From: Natronomonas salina
Lineage (GTDB): Archaea; Halobacteriota; Halobacteria; Halobacteriales; Haloarculaceae
Length of the DNA: 64,000 nt
Reading direction: 5' to 3'
Assembly (NCBI RefSeq): GCF_013391105.1
Contig: NZ_CP058335.1
Coordinates: 930,001-994,000 of the forward strand
In this document: positions 41,720 through 48,434 of the stretch, in pieces
Layout: each line of letters begins with the position of its first letter
Position numbering within the stretch: the stretch's first letter is position 1
Position numbers and translations under genes: made by a program
Notes under the pieces: generated by a model
What the model was told of the DNA's origin: nothing
Seen by the model: the letters and a program-made list of their open reading frames with translations, nothing else
Databases searched by the model: none

Positions 41720-42205
41720 TCAGAAGTGGACGTACAGCGAGACGTACCGGGCGACGCCCGTGAGGAACGCGACGATCCAGCAGGCGGTGTAGCCGAAGAC
41801 GCCGATCCGGATTCGGCGCCGCCAGAAGCGCATGTTCTCGTCGCCGATCTCGTCGAGCAGGACGTCCTCGTCGTAGTCGCTGTAGAGGCCGTGCTCGTAC
41901 TTCGCGCGGAACACGCGGACGATGCCGGTGAGCCCGAACGCGAGGAAGGCGTAGGCCTGCAGCCCGAAGAAGGCGTGGGCGGCGGCGAACCCGCCGAGCT
42001 GTTCGAGGAGCCGCGGGAGCATCCAGGCGAGCAGCGGCACCGTCGTCAGCGTCAGCCCGACGAGGATGAACTTCAGGTGGTAGATCAGGACGCTCCAGGT
42101 GACCGCCTCGGCGTCGAGCATGATCCAGGCCCCGTAGACGAGACAGGGGAAGCTGGCCGCGACCGAGAGGAGGACGACGGTCGCCACCAGGGCGTCGGAG
42201 GCCAT
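41720..42205 (-). CDS. membrane protein beside the cytochrome bc cluster (DUF7321-like)
   Basis: Start is ATG 42205 (MASDALVATVVLLSVAAS); the product has 161 residues and four membrane segments (about 4-24, 38-60, 70-92, 135-155), with an acidic loop YDEDVLLDEIGDE. The family is found next to haloarchaeal bc complex genes, which suggests an accessory or assembly role; that is known only from context. It is divergent from the next gene with 136 bp between. Confidence 0.65.
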   Translation of the reverse strand: MASDALVATVVLLSVAASFPCLVYGAWIMLDAEAVTWSVLIYHLKFILVGLTLTTVPLLAWMLPRLLEQLGGFAAAHAFFGLQAYAFLAFGLTGIVRVFRAKYEHGLYSDYDEDVLLDEIGDENMRFWRRRIRIGVFGYTACWIVAFLTGVARYVSLYVHF

Positions 42206-42341
42206 CGGCGGCGGTACGCCCGGGGGCCGTTTCAACGTGCCGAGTCGTCCCCGTCGCGGCCCACCTGCCCCTCTCGCGTCCCTCTCGCGCCCCGGTCGCG
42301 GGTCGCAAGGCGTAAGCCACCGACGGTCCTACGGGCGGCTG

Positions 42342-43304
42342 ATGGCCGATCCCCGGCAGTCCTCCGACGAGGGCGACGACGAGGACCAGCGTGGCGGCGG
42401 CCACGAGCAGCGAGACGGCGATGGCCGCGGCGACGGCAGCCGCGCCGGCGCCGGGTCGAGCGGGGACGACGCCGTAAACGAGGAGCTCTCGACCGAGGAG
42501 CTCCGCGAGCGGGTCGAGGCCGAGTACGACTTCGAGAACTTCGGCGCACGGGAGATGGAGGAGATGTCGGTCGAGGAGTGGGAGGCGGTCTTCGACCCCG
42601 ACGCCTGGATCACCGGCGAGGCGCTCCTCGACCGCGTCGAGCGGGAGCTGCGGGCGAACGTCCACCGCAGGGAGGTCTTCGCCGTCGTCGAGCGCGTCGG
42701 CGACGGCGACGACGACCGGGTGGTGGCGTACTCCGACGAGGGGTACGTCATCGTCCGCCCCGACGGCTCCATCCAGGGCACCGGGACGATCCTCCGGGAC
42801 GTCGAGCCGATGGTCGCGCTCTGCTCGATGGAGGACTACGACGTGCCGGACGTCGACGACGACGCCGGCCTCCCCGACCCCGACGCGGTCGCCGAGGGCA
42901 GCGGCGACCTCGGCAACAAGATGCTGCAGGTCGTCGCCGGCGCGACGGCGCTGTCCGGCGTCGGGTTCGTCCTGGCGTGGGTGGCGAGCGTCGTCGGCGT
43001 CCTCGACCTCGGGTTCGCCGGCGCCATCGTCCTCACGCTCGGGCTCGTCTTCCTCGTCGTGGGGACGCTCCTCTTCGTGACCGTCGCCAACGCCCGGCTC
43101 TCCGACCGGATGCGCTCCGAGCAGTACCGCGACCGGCTGCGGGCGGTCGGCGCCGGCGCCGAGGAGCGCCCCGAGTTCCTGCCGGACGACGCCTTCGAGG
43201 CCGGCGGGACCGAACTGGAGCGGGCGATGGCGGAGATCCACCGCGAGGCCCTCGAGGCCGCCGACGAGTCGAGCGGTCGGTCACCGGACGAAGAGTCCCG
43301 CTGA
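42342..43304 (+). CDS. DUF7319-like membrane protein of the bc cluster
   Basis: The product has 320 residues. The first 45 are disordered and acidic (GDGRGDGSRAGAG-like). A soluble domain follows with ENFGAREMEEMSVEEWEAVFD (about 65-85, in part) and VIVRPDGSIQGTGTILRD. Two membrane segments at about 205-225 and 230-250 precede a charged tail. No redox motif is visible. Position and orientation just before the halocyanin and Rieske genes suggest an accessory subunit or assembly factor of the complex. There is a 165 bp gap to the next gene, which has its own promoter. Confidence 0.65.
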   Translation: MADPRQSSDEGDDEDQRGGGHEQRDGDGRGDGSRAGAGSSGDDAVNEELSTEELRERVEAEYDFENFGAREMEEMSVEEWEAVFDPDAWITGEALLDRVERELRANVHRREVFAVVERVGDGDDDRVVAYSDEGYVIVRPDGSIQGTGTILRDVEPMVALCSMEDYDVPDVDDDAGLPDPDAVAEGSGDLGNKMLQVVAGATALSGVGFVLAWVASVVGVLDLGFAGAIVLTLGLVFLVVGTLLFVTVANARLSDRMRSEQYRDRLRAVGAGAEERPEFLPDDAFEAGGTELERAMAEIHREALEAADESSGRSPDEESR

Positions 43305-43435
43305 GACCGGCCGTCGCCCGCTGAGACGACGGCACGAGGGGCTCCCTCGACGGCCCCGATCGCTCGTTTTCGAGAACCCCACTGACAGCCGTTCAGGCGG
43401 CCGTAGAACGGCGCTTCACGCGACCGCCATCGGTG

Positions 43436-43444
43436 GGTTTAAGC
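43436..43444 (+). promoter_or_regulatory. TATA box of the bc operon
   Basis: GGTTTAAGC is centred 30 nt before the halocyanin ATG at 43470 and probably drives the tightly spaced operon through 46975. Confidence 0.55.
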
Positions 43445-43469
43445 ACGAACAGTCCACATCCTCGGGTGT

Positions 43470-44135
43470 ATGAAAAGGCGGGACTTCATGCGTACCGCTG
43501 GCGGTGCGACCATCGCCGCGGGCGCGACAGCAGGTGCGGCCCAGCCGGCCGTCGCATCCTCCTCCGGAGGTGGCGAAGAGGGCGGCGGAGGTGGCGATCA
43601 GGTACCCGACTTCGGATCGTACCTCGAGGACGCCAACGGCTTCAGCACGGACAGCATCCAGGACGCCCGAGGCGAGGACTCGGTGACCGTCGAGGTCGGC
43701 GCGGGCGACGGCCTGGCGTTCGACTCCGCCGGAATCTGGGTCTCCCCCGGCACGACCATCACCTGGGAGTGGACCGGCGAAGGCGGCAACCACAACGTCC
43801 TGCCCAACGAGGGCCCCGCCGGCTTCGAACACGAGGAAACCATCGGTGAATCCGGCTACACCTTCGAGTACGAGGTGACCGAGGAGGACGCCGGCATCAC
43901 GACGTACTACTGCCAGCCCCACGAGGGCCAGGGCATGAAGGGCGGCGTCGCCGTGGGCGACGACGTCGAGACGACCTCGGCGGGCAACGAGATGAAGGAG
44001 CCCCGGGAGTTCGGCGTCGACATCCACGAGCACTGGGTCGGCGTCACCGTCGTCCTGATGATGTCCGTCTCGATGGTGTTCACGTTCTTCACGCTGAAGT
44101 ACGGCGAGTCGCCGCACACGAGCGGGGGTGACTGA
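43470..44135 (+). CDS. halocyanin-domain blue copper protein, membrane-anchored
   Basis: The product has 221 residues. A Tat signal (KRRDFMRTAGGATIAAG) is followed by a Gly-rich linker and a cupredoxin domain with copper ligands His108 (GGNHNV), Cys148 (TTYYCQPH), His151 and Met156. Unlike typical halocyanins, a C-terminal membrane helix follows at about 190-212 (VVLMMSVSMVFTFFTLK), so the copper centre is tethered at the outer face. It probably accepts electrons from the Rieske protein in place of cytochrome c1. It is the first gene of a five-gene run with 2 bp gaps. Confidence 0.88.
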   Translation: MKRRDFMRTAGGATIAAGATAGAAQPAVASSSGGGEEGGGGGDQVPDFGSYLEDANGFSTDSIQDARGEDSVTVEVGAGDGLAFDSAGIWVSPGTTITWEWTGEGGNHNVLPNEGPAGFEHEETIGESGYTFEYEVTEEDAGITTYYCQPHEGQGMKGGVAVGDDVETTSAGNEMKEPREFGVDIHEHWVGVTVVLMMSVSMVFTFFTLKYGESPHTSGGD

Positions 44136-44137
44136 CC

Positions 44138-44533
44138 GTGGCGGACAACAGCTACGGCGCGATCCACCGCTACGAGCCGGCCCGCGAGAGCACCGTCGCC
44201 GCCATCACCATCGTCGTCCTGGCGGTCCTCCAGATCGTCCTGGTCGGCGTGTTCACCTACGGCCTGACCGCCGGCTGGGCGGTCGGGACCTCCACGGGGA
44301 CCGAAGCGGGGAACGTCCTGCTCGGCCTCCTGCTGGCGGCGATCTTCATCAACCTCGCGTTCATCCTCCTGCTGTACCGCAAGGAGTTCCTCCCGGACGT
44401 GATGGTCGTCAAGAAGCGCCGCCGGAAGTGGGAGGACCTTTACGTGCGCGAGGAGGATATGCACGGCGAGGAGCTTACCGACGGCATGGGTGACAAACTG
44501 AAACGTGCTATCTATCCCTACTACAAGCGATAA
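44138..44533 (+). CDS. DUF7318-like small membrane subunit
   Basis: GTG start 2 bp after halocyanin. The 131-residue product has two membrane segments (about 22-45 and 60-80), a cytosolic basic stretch KKRRRKWEDLYVREED and ends KRAIYPYYKR. No cofactor motif is visible. The 2 bp spacings on both sides show it is part of the operon, so it is probably a structural subunit of the bc complex. The exact family number is from memory. Confidence 0.75.
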   Translation: MADNSYGAIHRYEPARESTVAAITIVVLAVLQIVLVGVFTYGLTAGWAVGTSTGTEAGNVLLGLLLAAIFINLAFILLLYRKEFLPDVMVVKKRRRKWEDLYVREEDMHGEELTDGMGDKLKRAIYPYYKR

Positions 44534-44535
44534 CC

Positions 44536-45381
44536 ATGAGTGAAGACAAGTACCCGAGCGAGTCCGGACGACGGCGGTTCGTGAAGGGGGTCGTGGGCAG
44601 CGCGGCCCTCTCCGGCGTCGGCGTGGGCGGCGCGGCGACGGTCGACATCGCGACCCAGCCGTCCGGCGGCGGCGGGGGACCGACCCCCTACGTCGGCATC
44701 GAACTGGTGGGCGGCCCCGCCCCGCGCGGGATGCCGTACATCCCCGTGGAGATCGCCGACAACGGCGATATCCGCGGCGTGTGGCCCGAGGTCGAGGAGG
44801 TCACCGAGGCCGGGACGACCTACGAGGTCGCCCAGACGCAGATCGGTGGCCAGACGTACTCCTCGGAGTGGTTCCAGTACTGCGGCCGACAGAACGCCCA
44901 GGGCGTCGTACCGAGCGCCGACCAGGACAACACCTTCGTCTCCATCGACAGCCCGCCCTACGAGTGGCAGTCAAGCGAGCTGAGCGGCGGGGACCCGCTC
45001 AACATCGAGCACTTCTCCGACTACGACTCGTGGGGCAACGAGATCGGCGACGAGGGCGTCGGCAAGCCCGCCCGCGCGAGGTGGCGCTCGGAAGGGACCG
45101 ACAGCGTCCTCCCGGTCACGGTCATCCGGAGCCCGCTCATCGAAGAGAAGGCCCAGCAGGACGGTGAGGTCGGGGAGTGGTACTCCGCGGCGTCGGCCCA
45201 GGGCGTCATCGCCTACATGAACGTCTGTACCCACTTCTGCTGTGTGCCTGGGTACAAGGTGTCGGGCGACGCCGCGACGTACGACATCGCCAACGGCGTG
45301 TACTGCCAGTGCCACCAGTCGCGATACGACCCGTTCTCCCCCGAGTTCGGGACGTTCGTCGCCCTCCCGAGACCCGAGTGA
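44536..45381 (+). CDS. Rieske iron-sulfur protein of the bc complex
   Basis: The product has 281 residues. GRRRFVKGVVGSAALSG near the N-terminus is a Tat signal that also serves as membrane anchor. The cluster-binding boxes are CTHFCC and CQCHQSRYDP, giving two Cys and two His ligands plus the disulfide Cys pair. Between them and the anchor there is a long insertion (about residues 60-200) not typical of bacterial Rieske proteins. It carries electrons from quinol at cytochrome b to halocyanin. Confidence 0.93.
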   Translation: MSEDKYPSESGRRRFVKGVVGSAALSGVGVGGAATVDIATQPSGGGGGPTPYVGIELVGGPAPRGMPYIPVEIADNGDIRGVWPEVEEVTEAGTTYEVAQTQIGGQTYSSEWFQYCGRQNAQGVVPSADQDNTFVSIDSPPYEWQSSELSGGDPLNIEHFSDYDSWGNEIGDEGVGKPARARWRSEGTDSVLPVTVIRSPLIEEKAQQDGEVGEWYSAASAQGVIAYMNVCTHFCCVPGYKVSGDAATYDIANGVYCQCHQSRYDPFSPEFGTFVALPRPE

Positions 45382-45383
45382 CA

Positions 45384-46190
45384 ATGAGCCTGGAACCAAA
45401 AGACGAACACGACCACGAAGCGTGGATGGAGACGAAGGACCTCTCGCCGATCGAGGAGGTCTACCTCACCGCGCTCATCTGGATGGACAAGCGCCTCCGC
45501 ATCGTCGACTACCTCGAGATGCTGGAGGACATGTACTACAAGACGAACCTCCAGATGCCGAAGAGCCACACCGAACAGTACAACCTCGACAACAAGTTCT
45601 GGTACTGGTACCCGCTGTACGCCCTCGGGTCGTTCAGTACCATCGCCTACGTCGTCGCGGCGATAACCGGGGCGCTGCTGGGCTTCTACTACGCCCCGTC
45701 GACCGCGACGGTCGGCGAGGGGGCCCAGACGGTCGCCTACTCGAACGTCCTGTTCATCATGGGCGACCTGAACTTCGGACTGTTCCTCCGGAGCCTCCAC
45801 CGCTGGTCCGCACAGGTGATGACGGCGGCCGTGTTCCTGCACATGCTCCGCGTGTACTTCACGGGAGCGTACAAGGAACCCCGCGAGCTGAACTGGATCA
45901 TCGGCATCATCCTCATCTCGCTGACGATGGTCTTCGGCTACACGGGCTACCTGCTGCCGTGGAGCCAGCTGTCGTACTGGGCGGGACAGATCGGCGTCGA
46001 GATGGCGCTGTCCATCCCCCTGATAGGCGAGTGGGCCGCACAGCTCATCTTCGGGGGGTTCACGCTCGGTGAGGCGACGCTCCAGCGGATGTACATCCTG
46101 CACGTGTTCATCCTGCCGTTCGTGGTGACGGCGATCATCGCCGTCCACATCGGCATCGTCTGGATGCAGGGCATCGCGGAACCCCACTGA
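45384..46190 (+). CDS. petB: cytochrome b, N-terminal half (b6-like)
   Basis: The product has 268 residues with four core membrane helices. Haem ligands are in SLHRWSAQVMTAAVFLHMLRV (two His, 13 residues between) and ILHVFILPFVVTAIIAVHIG (two His, 14 between); the 14-residue spacing in the second pair is the cytochrome b6-type pattern rather than the bc1 pattern. It is the quinol-oxidising haem subunit. The protein is split from the C-terminal half, as in b6f complexes. 2 bp gaps on both sides. Confidence 0.93.
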   Translation: MSLEPKDEHDHEAWMETKDLSPIEEVYLTALIWMDKRLRIVDYLEMLEDMYYKTNLQMPKSHTEQYNLDNKFWYWYPLYALGSFSTIAYVVAAITGALLGFYYAPSTATVGEGAQTVAYSNVLFIMGDLNFGLFLRSLHRWSAQVMTAAVFLHMLRVYFTGAYKEPRELNWIIGIILISLTMVFGYTGYLLPWSQLSYWAGQIGVEMALSIPLIGEWAAQLIFGGFTLGEATLQRMYILHVFILPFVVTAIIAVHIGIVWMQGIAEPH

Positions 46191-46192
46191 TC

Positions 46193-46975
46193 ATGACCGA
46201 CGAAGAACCCACAACCGACGGCGGCGAACCGAAGACGGACGGAGGCGGCATCGTGCCGCAGGACGACCAGGCGCCGACCTGGTCGGAGCGCAAGGAGCGC
46301 TCGCAGGGCCTCTCGCGGCTCACCTACGAGTACTTCGAACGGTCGCGCCGCGAGGACGAGGACCTCCGGCGGGCCTCCGACTACGTCGAGCGCGACGTGC
46401 TCGCGTTCCCGACCTGGCCCCACGAGATGATCCGCAACCTCGCGCTCACGTCGTTCTTCATGGGCCTGCTGCTGTTCATCTCGGCGGCCATCCCGCCGCA
46501 CCTGCCGGGGCCGGCCGACCCGAACTCCACGCCGGCGGTCATCCTGCCGGACTGGTACCTCTACTGGTCGTTCGGCCTGCTCAAGCTGACGCCGATCAAC
46601 CCCGAGCTCTCGCTGCTCGGCGGCGAGAAGCTCATGGCCGACCGGACGTACGGGGTCCTGGCGAACCTCGTCGTCGTCGGCATCATCGCGGTCGTCCCGT
46701 TCCTGAACAAGGGGAGCGCCCGCCGTCCCGTCGAGGAGCCCTTCTGGGCCGCCGTCGGCGTCGGCGGCGTCGTCTTCGCGTTCACCATCGCGGTGCTCGC
46801 GGTCCAGAACCTCATCCTGGAGACGTTCCCCATCACGAAGAACGAGCTGTTCGACCTGACGTTCATGCTCCCGGTCGTCGTGGGCTTCGTCGCCTACTCG
46901 GTGCTGAAGACGATGCGCGAGGGGTACATGTTCGAGCTGAACCGCCGGTACTACCGGCTGCGACCGCCGAAGTAG
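46193..46975 (+). CDS. petD: cytochrome b, C-terminal half (subunit IV-like)
   Basis: The product has 260 residues. A hydrophilic, acidic N-terminal extension of about 75 residues precedes three or four membrane segments. PDWYLYWSFGLLK is the quinol-site signature (PEWY in bc1, PDWY in some other complexes). It pairs with the N-terminal half encoded 2 bp upstream to complete cytochrome b. It is the last gene of the tight operon; a new TATA box follows. Confidence 0.92.
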   Translation: MTDEEPTTDGGEPKTDGGGIVPQDDQAPTWSERKERSQGLSRLTYEYFERSRREDEDLRRASDYVERDVLAFPTWPHEMIRNLALTSFFMGLLLFISAAIPPHLPGPADPNSTPAVILPDWYLYWSFGLLKLTPINPELSLLGGEKLMADRTYGVLANLVVVGIIAVVPFLNKGSARRPVEEPFWAAVGVGGVVFAFTIAVLAVQNLILETFPITKNELFDLTFMLPVVVGFVAYSVLKTMREGYMFELNRRYYRLRPPK

Positions 46976-46994
46976 ACCGGCCCCCGTTCCGGCA

Positions 46995-47003
46995 CTTTTA
47001 CTC
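46995..47003 (+). promoter_or_regulatory. TATA box of the DUF7315-like gene
   Basis: CTTTTACTC is centred about 28 nt before ATG 47028, so the two small downstream genes can be transcribed separately from the bc operon. Confidence 0.5.
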
Positions 47004-47027
47004 GTACCCGCGACGTTGCTACGTTCG

Positions 47028-47366
47028 ATGACCGACGACGAGCCTCGGCAGTCCGGAGCGCCGCCGGAGGAGTCCGGCCCCGAACCCGGCGGCCGCGAGG
47101 TCGTCGTCCCGATGCGCCTCTACAAGACCGTCACCGTCTTCTCGACGCTGGTCGCCGTCGTCGCCATCCTCGGAGGGTTCGTCCTGCTCGACCGCGGCAC
47201 ACAGCGGGCGACGGCGAGTCCCGACGAGGTGAGCCTGCCGGTCGTGGCCCTCGGGCTGGCGCTCATCGTCGGCGGCAGCGCCGTCTACGCCTTCTCCACG
47301 CGGTTCCGGACCGAGGGAATGGGAAAACCTAAAGACGACACCGACGAACCAACGAACAATGGCTGA
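47028..47366 (+). CDS. DUF7315-like small membrane protein
   Basis: The 112-residue product begins MTDDEPRQSGAPPEESGPEP, an acidic disordered head, then VVPMRLYKTVTVFSTLVAVVA with a first membrane segment at about 37-56 and a second at about 76-95. It overlaps the next gene by 8 bp. It recurs with haloarchaeal bc clusters and is a candidate accessory subunit; no cofactor motif is present. Confidence 0.7.
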   Translation: MTDDEPRQSGAPPEESGPEPGGREVVVPMRLYKTVTVFSTLVAVVAILGGFVLLDRGTQRATASPDEVSLPVVALGLALIVGGSAVYAFSTRFRTEGMGKPKDDTDEPTNNG

Positions 47367-47631
47367 CGAATTCGCCAAGGGACTCGGTATCCTCACCGGC
47401 GGGGGACTCGTGTGGATGGCCATCTCCGCGTGGCTCACGACGGCGGGCTTCGAAGGGAGACAGCTCCTCGCGGCCCCGCCGAGCGACGTCGGGACCTACG
47501 GCGAGCTCGCGCTCGTGATCCGCGACGTGACCGGCTGGTTCATCATCTTCGGCGTGCTGGCCTTCTGGGTGCTCATCCCGAGCATCCGGCAGGTCCAGCA
47601 GTACCGCAGGTCCCGCGCCGACCAGTCGTAG
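47359..47631 (+). CDS. DUF7314-like small membrane protein
   Basis: The 90-residue product begins MADEFAKGLGILTGGGLVWM and has two membrane segments (about 10-28 and 58-77). The 8 bp overlap with the upstream gene implies translational coupling. It is another probable accessory subunit of the bc cluster. The downstream region is convergent and empty. Confidence 0.7.
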   Translation: MADEFAKGLGILTGGGLVWMAISAWLTTAGFEGRQLLAAPPSDVGTYGELALVIRDVTGWFIIFGVLAFWVLIPSIRQVQQYRRSRADQS

Positions 47632-47993
47632 TCCGCAGAACCGACTCCCTTCTCCCGCGACCTCGCCGTCGTTCCTGCTTCGCGTCTCTCCCTCCCTGGC
47701 CATCGGCTCGCCGTTCTGGACCTCGAGGTGACGGGACGCCTGCGCCTCCCGCTGGGGACGCCTCAATTGTCTCTCTCGTTCTCTCGCCGGTTCTCCGGAC
47801 AGGACACTGCTCGCGTCTCCGGTTGGCCAAAAGACGTAGATACGAATCGACGACGGGGTATCGCACTCTGCCGTCGCGTGCGGGGCTCACGAGATACTAT
47901 CCACGAGGAGTGGCTCGGACGAGGAATGGACCGAATGACGCCGAACGCGCGGTGGGCGTCGGCGAGAAGCAGGCGAGTGGAACGCGGCGGCGA
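47632..47993. other. convergent intergenic region, no gene seen
   Basis: This 362 bp stretch lies between two converging transcripts. The reading frames crossing it are Arg/Ser-rich and look like chance. There is a pyrimidine-rich TCTCTCTCGTTCTCTCG tract near 47769-47785. No tRNA or repeat was recognised. Confidence 0.4.
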
Positions 47994-48434
47994 TCAGATG
48001 ATGGCGTTCCAGAAGGGGAAGAAGTTCGCGAGGATCTGGTAGACGGCGTACGCGAGGATGAGCATCGAGCCACCGATGGAGCCCCACGGCCGCTCGATGG
48101 CCCAGCCCTGGCGGGCCTCGACCCGGCGGGCCTCGAACTCGAAGAAGTCCGAGAGGAACAGCCCGACCGCGAACAGCGAGAAGATCATCCCGGTGTGGCG
48201 GTCGACGGTCATGAAGTAGAAGGACGCGATGACGAGCAGGAAGCTCGTCCCCACCCGGATCGGGTTCCGGCTGACCCGCTCGTCGTCCTCGCCCTCCTCG
48301 ACCTGGTTGGTGATCTGTCGGTACTCGAAGGCCCGGCTGGCGATGTTGACGACCACGAGCACCAGGAGCACGTAGATCAACACCGGCTCCAGGAGGGTGT
48401 CCACCGGGCCGAACAGCGTCACCGATGAGTCCAT
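47994..48434 (-). CDS. DUF7313-like membrane protein
   Basis: Start is ATG 48434, which has a TATA box 27 nt upstream; the product has 146 residues beginning MDSSVTLFGPVDTLLEPVLI. Four membrane segments (about 15-33, 60-80, 84-100, 118-140) are separated by short loops, the first rich in acidic residues. It belongs to the set of small families that accompany haloarchaeal bc clusters, here in convergent orientation. Function is unknown. Confidence 0.7.
   Translation of the reverse strand: MDSSVTLFGPVDTLLEPVLIYVLLVLVVVNIASRAFEYRQITNQVEEGEDDERVSRNPIRVGTSFLLVIASFYFMTVDRHTGMIFSLFAVGLFLSDFFEFEARRVEARQGWAIERPWGSIGGSMLILAYAVYQILANFFPFWNAII

Follow-up and report, generated by a model that had tools for sequence, protein, structure and literature searches.

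A predicted haloarchaeal Rieske/cytochrome b complex with a tethered halocyanin and a probably re-ordered Rieske head

Introduction

A split Rieske/cytochrome b complex of haloarchaea was reportedly described by Baymann et al. 2012, and we take it to be the complex encoded by the gene cluster studied here, at positions 41720-48434 of a 64,000-nucleotide stretch of the Natronomonas salina genome. This stretch (bases 930001-994000 of a single contig of 3.75 Mb) was analysed as a whole and is called the window below. The cluster holds genes for the two halves of cytochrome b, a Rieske protein, a halocyanin domain protein and six small DUF families. Its product is probably a Rieske/cytochrome b complex that oxidises menaquinol, with the tethered halocyanin standing in for cytochrome c1 or f.

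In PMC8305020, HVO_2620/0842/0841 are identified as petABD of the haloarchaeal complex, the genes are called b6f-like, and the complex is missing from about a third of haloarchaea. The same paper names menaquinone as the haloarchaeal quinone and halocyanin as the likely carrier. For Sulfolobus, PMC3062577 places sulfocyanin as an intermediate in the SoxM supercomplex. QcrA, the Rieske subunit of the actinobacterial QcrCAB complex, apparently has three membrane helices (PMC4505504).

Results

Cytochrome b and halocyanin

Genes at 41720-48434 were called from reading frames and Pfam matches. Cytochrome b is divided over a PetB-like protein comprising helices A-D (45384..46190, plus strand; an alternative GTG start at 45378 is possible) and a PetD-like C-terminal half with four hydrophobic helices (46193..46975, plus strand), with Pfam matches to PF00033 and PF00032. 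Conserved residues were counted over 52 sequences, i.e. the window sequence plus 51 other loci, and over 47 sequences for the Rieske protein. The PetB heme ligands H141/H155 and H242/H257, with His spacings of 13 and 14, and the PDWY motif of the Qo site were invariant in 52/52. The four heme histidines and the Rieske cluster ligands place the proteins in the Rieske/cytochrome b superfamily.

Cyanobacterial cytochrome b6 was the best match of PetB in the Protein Data Bank (PDB). Cys35 of b6 (FYCLGG) is the attachment site of heme c_i. At the aligned column PetB has Ala in 23, Ser in 16 and Thr in 13 of the 52 sequences (Ala in the window), and the cysteine is absent from all of them. PetD has four predicted helices, one of which falls outside the stretch aligned to the b6f subunit IV model. 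On these two grounds, the absent heme c_i cysteine and the four predicted helices of PetD, the complex is not, as judged from its sequences, a cytochrome b6f complex.

The halocyanin domain protein (43470..44135, plus strand) combines an Arg-Arg signal, a type-1 copper site and a C-terminal membrane helix. Its TIGR03102 score of 103.4 bits, against a cut-off of 93.8, identifies it as a type-1 copper protein, and both the copper ligands (H108, C148, H151, M156) and the C-terminal hydrophobic helix were found in 52/52. Within the helix region H188 (52/52) and KYGES (50/52) are conserved, which suggests specific packing of this helix. No CXXCH motif occurs in any aligned member of the operon's ten families, a result for the operon only, as a cytochrome f model was not run genome-wide. 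Genome searches for cytochrome c1 (PF02167) and cytochrome c (PF00034) gave no match at E<=1, and copper-bind domains were found at eight places in the genome.

An earlier note on the window had described a split cytochrome b of b6 type, with His spacings of 13/14 and PDWY, and a copper protein bearing a C-terminal helix of its own, in an operon devoid of cytochrome c1 and f. These features were all recovered; only the label 'b6-type' holds in part, for the split and the His spacing and not for the heme c_i site or the helix number of PetD.

Rieske protein

In the Rieske [2Fe-2S] protein (44536..45381, plus strand), box 1 consists of C231, H233 and C236 and box 2 of C257, C259 and H260, and the cluster motifs CTH.CC and C.CH.S are present in 47/47. 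The QcrA segment GPAARALPQLPITVDEEGYL is located C-terminal to box 2; its counterpart in the haloarchaeal profile is at 60-81, before box 1. In the window protein this tail-type motif reads GPAPRG...IP.E (residues 60-81) and is likewise N-terminal to box 1.

A hidden Markov model (HMM) of the tail was built from nine Rieske proteins of the nar type, which belong to the second, nar-linked complex of haloarchaea. It matched 47/47 split-type Rieske proteins at 3.7-25 bits (median 14.8), whereas 0/282 reversed or shuffled copies reached 5 bits. The best match preceded box 1 in all 47, and the canonical order of PF00355, with the Pro-loop tail after box 2, was not found in them. For the remainder of the nar profile, the best match fell within the cluster region in the six sequences listed, and never before box 1 (0/47). 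Moving residues 57-86 to the end of the protein raised the median full-profile score from 14.3 to 23.6 bits, with a median gain of 9.4 bits and a gain in 42/47 sequences, while six control segment moves gained 0 to 0.3 bits. The tail motif also preceded box 1 in 78/80 loci kept from a scan of relatives and followed it in 0/80. PF00355 itself scored 14.6 bits on the window protein, below its cut-off of 20.3, and covered profile positions 34-71 of 88.

An AlphaFold2 (AF2) model based on 47 sequences had a pLDDT of 85.8, with residues 1-41 below 50; in this model a strand precedes the tail motif and short strands follow it. With the model as query, Foldseek returned no Rieske protein among its best 50 rows. 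All 23 rows of VIA-align were Rieske proteins (Z 2.5-4.6), headed by Corynebacterium QcrA (Z 4.6, rmsd 4.5, 125 aligned residues), and mostly covered model residues ~85-130 to ~270. The VIA-align result fits a permutation and is not proof of one.

Taken together, it is likely that the Rieske head is re-ordered; the head resembles a circularly permuted one, a trait shared with Hikarchaeia. What had earlier been read as a long insertion is thus mainly a changed order of segments, as the position of the tail match and the gain on re-ordering indicate.

Two extra cysteines, C116 and C235, are invariant in 47/47; a second disulfide close to the cluster may link them. An additional copy of the rearranged Rieske protein, encoded at some other site than petB, was seen in genomes G016, G051, G084, G102, G106 and G003, the last a fragment-length match, and also in G012, G056, G100, G109 and G123.

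DUF7318 and QcrA

The gene directly upstream of the Rieske gene encodes DUF7318 (PF24002; 44138..44533, plus strand), a two-helix hairpin that appears to be a homologue of the N-terminal part of QcrA from actinobacteria. All members (40/40) matched the actinobacterial QcrA model (NF050121) at E<=0.01, the best at 1.8e-6, with scores far below the model's full-length cut-off. The window protein matched model positions 22-98 and another member positions 19-125. A comparable arrangement was found in the nar-linked complex, where the gene before the canonical Rieske gene matched DUF7318 with its C-terminal end in 8/9 loci (E 3e-6 to 7e-3) and also weakly matched QcrA_N; the nar-type Rieske protein covers QcrA positions 119-315. 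Because a DUF7318-like hairpin gene and a Rieske gene cover successive parts of QcrA, both haloarchaeal complexes, split-type and nar-linked, seem to carry QcrA in two genes. From these sequence matches DUF7318 is probably the detached N-terminal membrane hairpin of QcrA, so that the earlier label of no known function does not hold for all six small families. At L090-L098 the nar-linked hairpin protein is separate and DUF7318-like, with an extra N-terminal membrane segment.

Organisation of the cluster

The other small families flank this core. Upstream are DUF7321 (PF24007; 41720..42205, minus strand), a four-helix membrane protein given here from its first conserved start in a reading frame that extends to 42235, and DUF7319 (PF24003; 42342..43304, plus strand), with a largely soluble domain followed by a hydrophobic region. 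Downstream are two small proteins, DUF7315 (PF23997; 47028..47366, plus strand; about two predicted helices) and DUF7314 (PF23996; 47359..47631, plus strand; two predicted helices), and the small membrane protein DUF7313 (PF23995; 47994..48434, minus strand). The four junctions from halocyanin through petD are gaps of 2 bp each, and the genes of DUF7315 and DUF7314 share 8 bp. All genes lie on the plus strand except those of DUF7321 and DUF7313, which lie on the minus strand. All genes named in the earlier note are present; the six coordinates it gave for small families are real, although its title counted five, and two of the six lie on the opposite strand.

The same gene order recurs at 51 other loci, 26 of which have the Rieske gene at another site, and at many of the 80 loci kept from the scan of relatives, so that it is not a product of chance. 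In one family (L050-L074) the Rieske gene is elsewhere in 25/25 loci and DUF7318 still precedes petB; in the remaining 26 loci it lies between DUF7318 and petB in 25. The halocyanin gene adjoins DUF7318 in 51/51 loci, and in nearly all loci DUF7318, DUF7314 and DUF7315 are same-strand neighbours of petB/petD.

Co-occurrence and spread

Presence lists were compared by eye over 136 genomes of the haloarchaeal class. A petB match of some kind was found in 99/136 genomes, and the split type (>400 bits) in 95/136; G001, G002, G010 and G039 had only a petB type of 126-142 bits. The Rieske profile, DUF7318, DUF7315, DUF7314 and DUF7313 occurred in the same 95 genomes as split-type petB, and DUF7319 and DUF7321 in 94 of the 95, being absent only in G021. 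Co-occurrence with petB, proposed earlier as a check on the small families, was thus observed, and apart from G021 no species combined petB/petD with a lack of the small proteins.

The small genes were retained although some had become unlinked: in 12 genomes DUF7313 shared a contig with petB but lay >30 kb from it, in 6 others the two were on different contigs (contig breaks may account for some of these), and DUF7315 and DUF7314 were relocated in G075 and G124. Absent genomes count for less than such retained unlinked copies, because a single event can remove or bring a whole linked cluster.

Four genomes of the window's own genus (G036, G037, G049 and G099) lack split petB, the Rieske protein and all six small families. 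G021 (L079), which has the complex without DUF7319 and DUF7321, is a small divergent haloarchaeal genome, and its complex is perhaps a reduced form.

In a scan of the phylum 35/294 genomes were positive, all of them haloarchaea from the class set. The scan of relatives found 270, of which 80 were kept, with any rarer hosts among the other 190 unseen. Among the 80, L198, a Marine Group IV (Hikarchaeia) bin, has all ten genes in the same order. This shared order agrees with an ancestral petB, for whose presence in the common ancestor of haloarchaea and Hikarchaeia PMC7599335 gives weak to moderate support.

DUF7321 and DUF7319

His43, His77, Trp61 and Met62 of DUF7321 are invariant in 42/42 sequences. 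Its AF2 model is a four-helix bundle (pLDDT 91.3) for which Foldseek found nothing at E<=0.001. The VIA-align matches included generic four-helix bundles, the highest at Z 12.0, and chains of oxidase subunit III (CtaE, CyoC) at Z ~9.3-10.1 (rmsd 3.0-3.7 over 130-135 residues). These values fall within the tool's common range for helical bundles, and we do not claim DUF7321 as kin of COX III or as a heme binder. Assignment to a known family was also rejected: no other Pfam model matched more than 11/42 members, and the best hit of a PDB profile search was RCF2 at E 0.88. A CcmI-like role of DUF7319 in the maturation of c-type cytochromes was dismissed as well, as the match occurred in 1/37 members and is attributed to chance.

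Discussion

Proposed mechanism

Gene content, ligands, motif order and co-occurrence are read from the sequences; complex membership, the electron path and a Q cycle are what we infer. We are highly confident of the composition and co-occurrence, and moderately so of the subunit status and mechanism. In the proposed complex, quinol would be oxidised at a Qo site formed by PetB and PetD (PDWY). The first electron would go to the Rieske cluster, next to the tethered halocyanin with its type-1 copper and from there to a terminal oxidase, either directly or via other halocyanins, while the second would cross the two b hemes to an inner quinone site, as in a Q cycle. The Pro-loop and last-strand segment of the Rieske head would be N-terminal, on the membrane anchor, with the other strands and both boxes following, and a separate gene, that of DUF7318, would supply the two N-terminal membrane helices found in a Rieske protein of the QcrA kind. 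DUF7314 and DUF7315 are probably small membrane subunits, and DUF7313, DUF7319 and DUF7321 may be subunits or dedicated assembly factors. On balance we lean slightly towards a broader picture, in which a circularly permuted Rieske protein of haloarchaea and Hikarchaeia, a cupredoxin acceptor, the DUF7318 hairpin and at least three further lineage-specific subunits were assembled before these lineages split.

Alternative explanations

The Rieske protein might instead have the normal order with a long insertion, the GPAPRG segment having converged on the canonical tail and the true tail being 'F.ALPRP'. Nearly all members do have a short Pro-containing tail after box 2, and the alignment with the b6f Rieske protein (2zt9_D) reaches model residue 276, at an rmsd of 6.2. 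However, the best tail-HMM match lies at residues 60-80, before box 1, in every one of the 47 proteins, bits are gained on re-ordering for the GPAPRG segment only, and a Foldseek top 50 without Rieske proteins is expected under an altered order, which makes an insertion quite improbable. The halocyanin, in turn, might stand outside the complex as the anchored donor of an oxidase, co-transcribed by happenstance. Such a role would suit a genome with eight places for copper-bind domains, and a fusion of halocyanin with an oxidase subunit is reported in PMC8305020; we nevertheless consider it unlikely in view of the constant position next to DUF7318 (51/51 loci) and the conserved helix region, which suggests specific packing. 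It is conceivable, though we would not bet on it, that all or most of the small families other than DUF7318 are biogenesis or maturation factors rather than stoichiometric subunits. DUF7313 and DUF7321 are frequently encoded on the other strand, DUF7313 is sometimes elsewhere, and G021 keeps petB without DUF7319 and DUF7321; for DUF7314 and DUF7315, like DUF7318, the nearly constant place beside petB/petD on the same strand argues the other way.

Several observations weigh against our preferred reading. No score was gained upon re-ordering in 5/47 Rieske sequences, the nar-type profile was built on only nine sequences, and the structural alignment scores are low, from sequential aligners that are unable to show a permutation. 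Single DUF7318 sequences give modest E-values of 1e-6 to 1e-2. In a profile search of the PDB the family matched best to 7q21_A, a Rieske subunit of an actinobacterial-type bc1 complex, at an E-value as high as 1.2. Most lineages without the complex may have lost the linked cluster, or failed to gain it, in one event, which makes the co-absence weaker evidence than it appears, and G021 does without two of the small families.

Few components of respiration and photosynthesis are as conserved as Rieske proteins. A re-ordered head, if true, would mean that the part lying over the cluster can change its place in the chain without loss of the hinge or the quinol chemistry. The tethered cupredoxin, if true, would explain the electron route from quinol to oxidase in a haloarchaeon without a cytochrome c or c1 match, and the six DUF families gain a testable home in a bc-type complex.

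Comparison with known systems

In the literature searched, with some entries judged without their text, we found no report of a permuted Rieske protein; nor did we find any paper naming one of the six DUF accessions, or an earlier report of DUF7318 as a QcrA hairpin or of the co-occurrence of the six families. The cluster shares with the haloarchaeal split Rieske/cytochrome b complex a split b6-like cytochrome b and a patchy distribution in haloarchaea. The acceptor protein of cytochrome b6f has a C-terminal helix, as has the halocyanin here. Cytochrome b6f also has a split cytochrome b with 13/14 His spacing; in contrast to b6f, the haloarchaeal complex has no heme c_i cysteine and no cytochrome f in the operon, its PetD has four predicted helices, and its Rieske order is rearranged.

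The resemblance to actinobacterial QcrCAB includes the menaquinol substrate (PMC8305020 gives menaquinone for haloarchaea), an acceptor with a C-terminal helix, and a Rieske protein with a hairpin and a third helix, of which DUF7318 and the nar-type Rieske protein correspond to successive parts. The haloarchaeal complex differs from QcrCAB in lacking a diheme cytochrome c, in carrying QcrA in what seem to be two genes, in its probably re-ordered Rieske head and in its split cytochrome b. A copper protein between a bc-analogous complex and an oxidase is also known from the SoxM supercomplex (PMC3062577), but there it is part of the oxidase supercomplex, whereas the halocyanin gene here is in the petB operon, with no adjacent oxidase genes. 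In the nar-linked complex (NarB/NarC), too, a DUF7318-like hairpin is encoded by a gene of its own ahead of the Rieske gene, but this complex has the canonical Rieske order, an unsplit cytochrome b and a hairpin protein with an extra N-terminal part. The cluster of N. salina encodes a pronounced variant of a type of complex that was already known.

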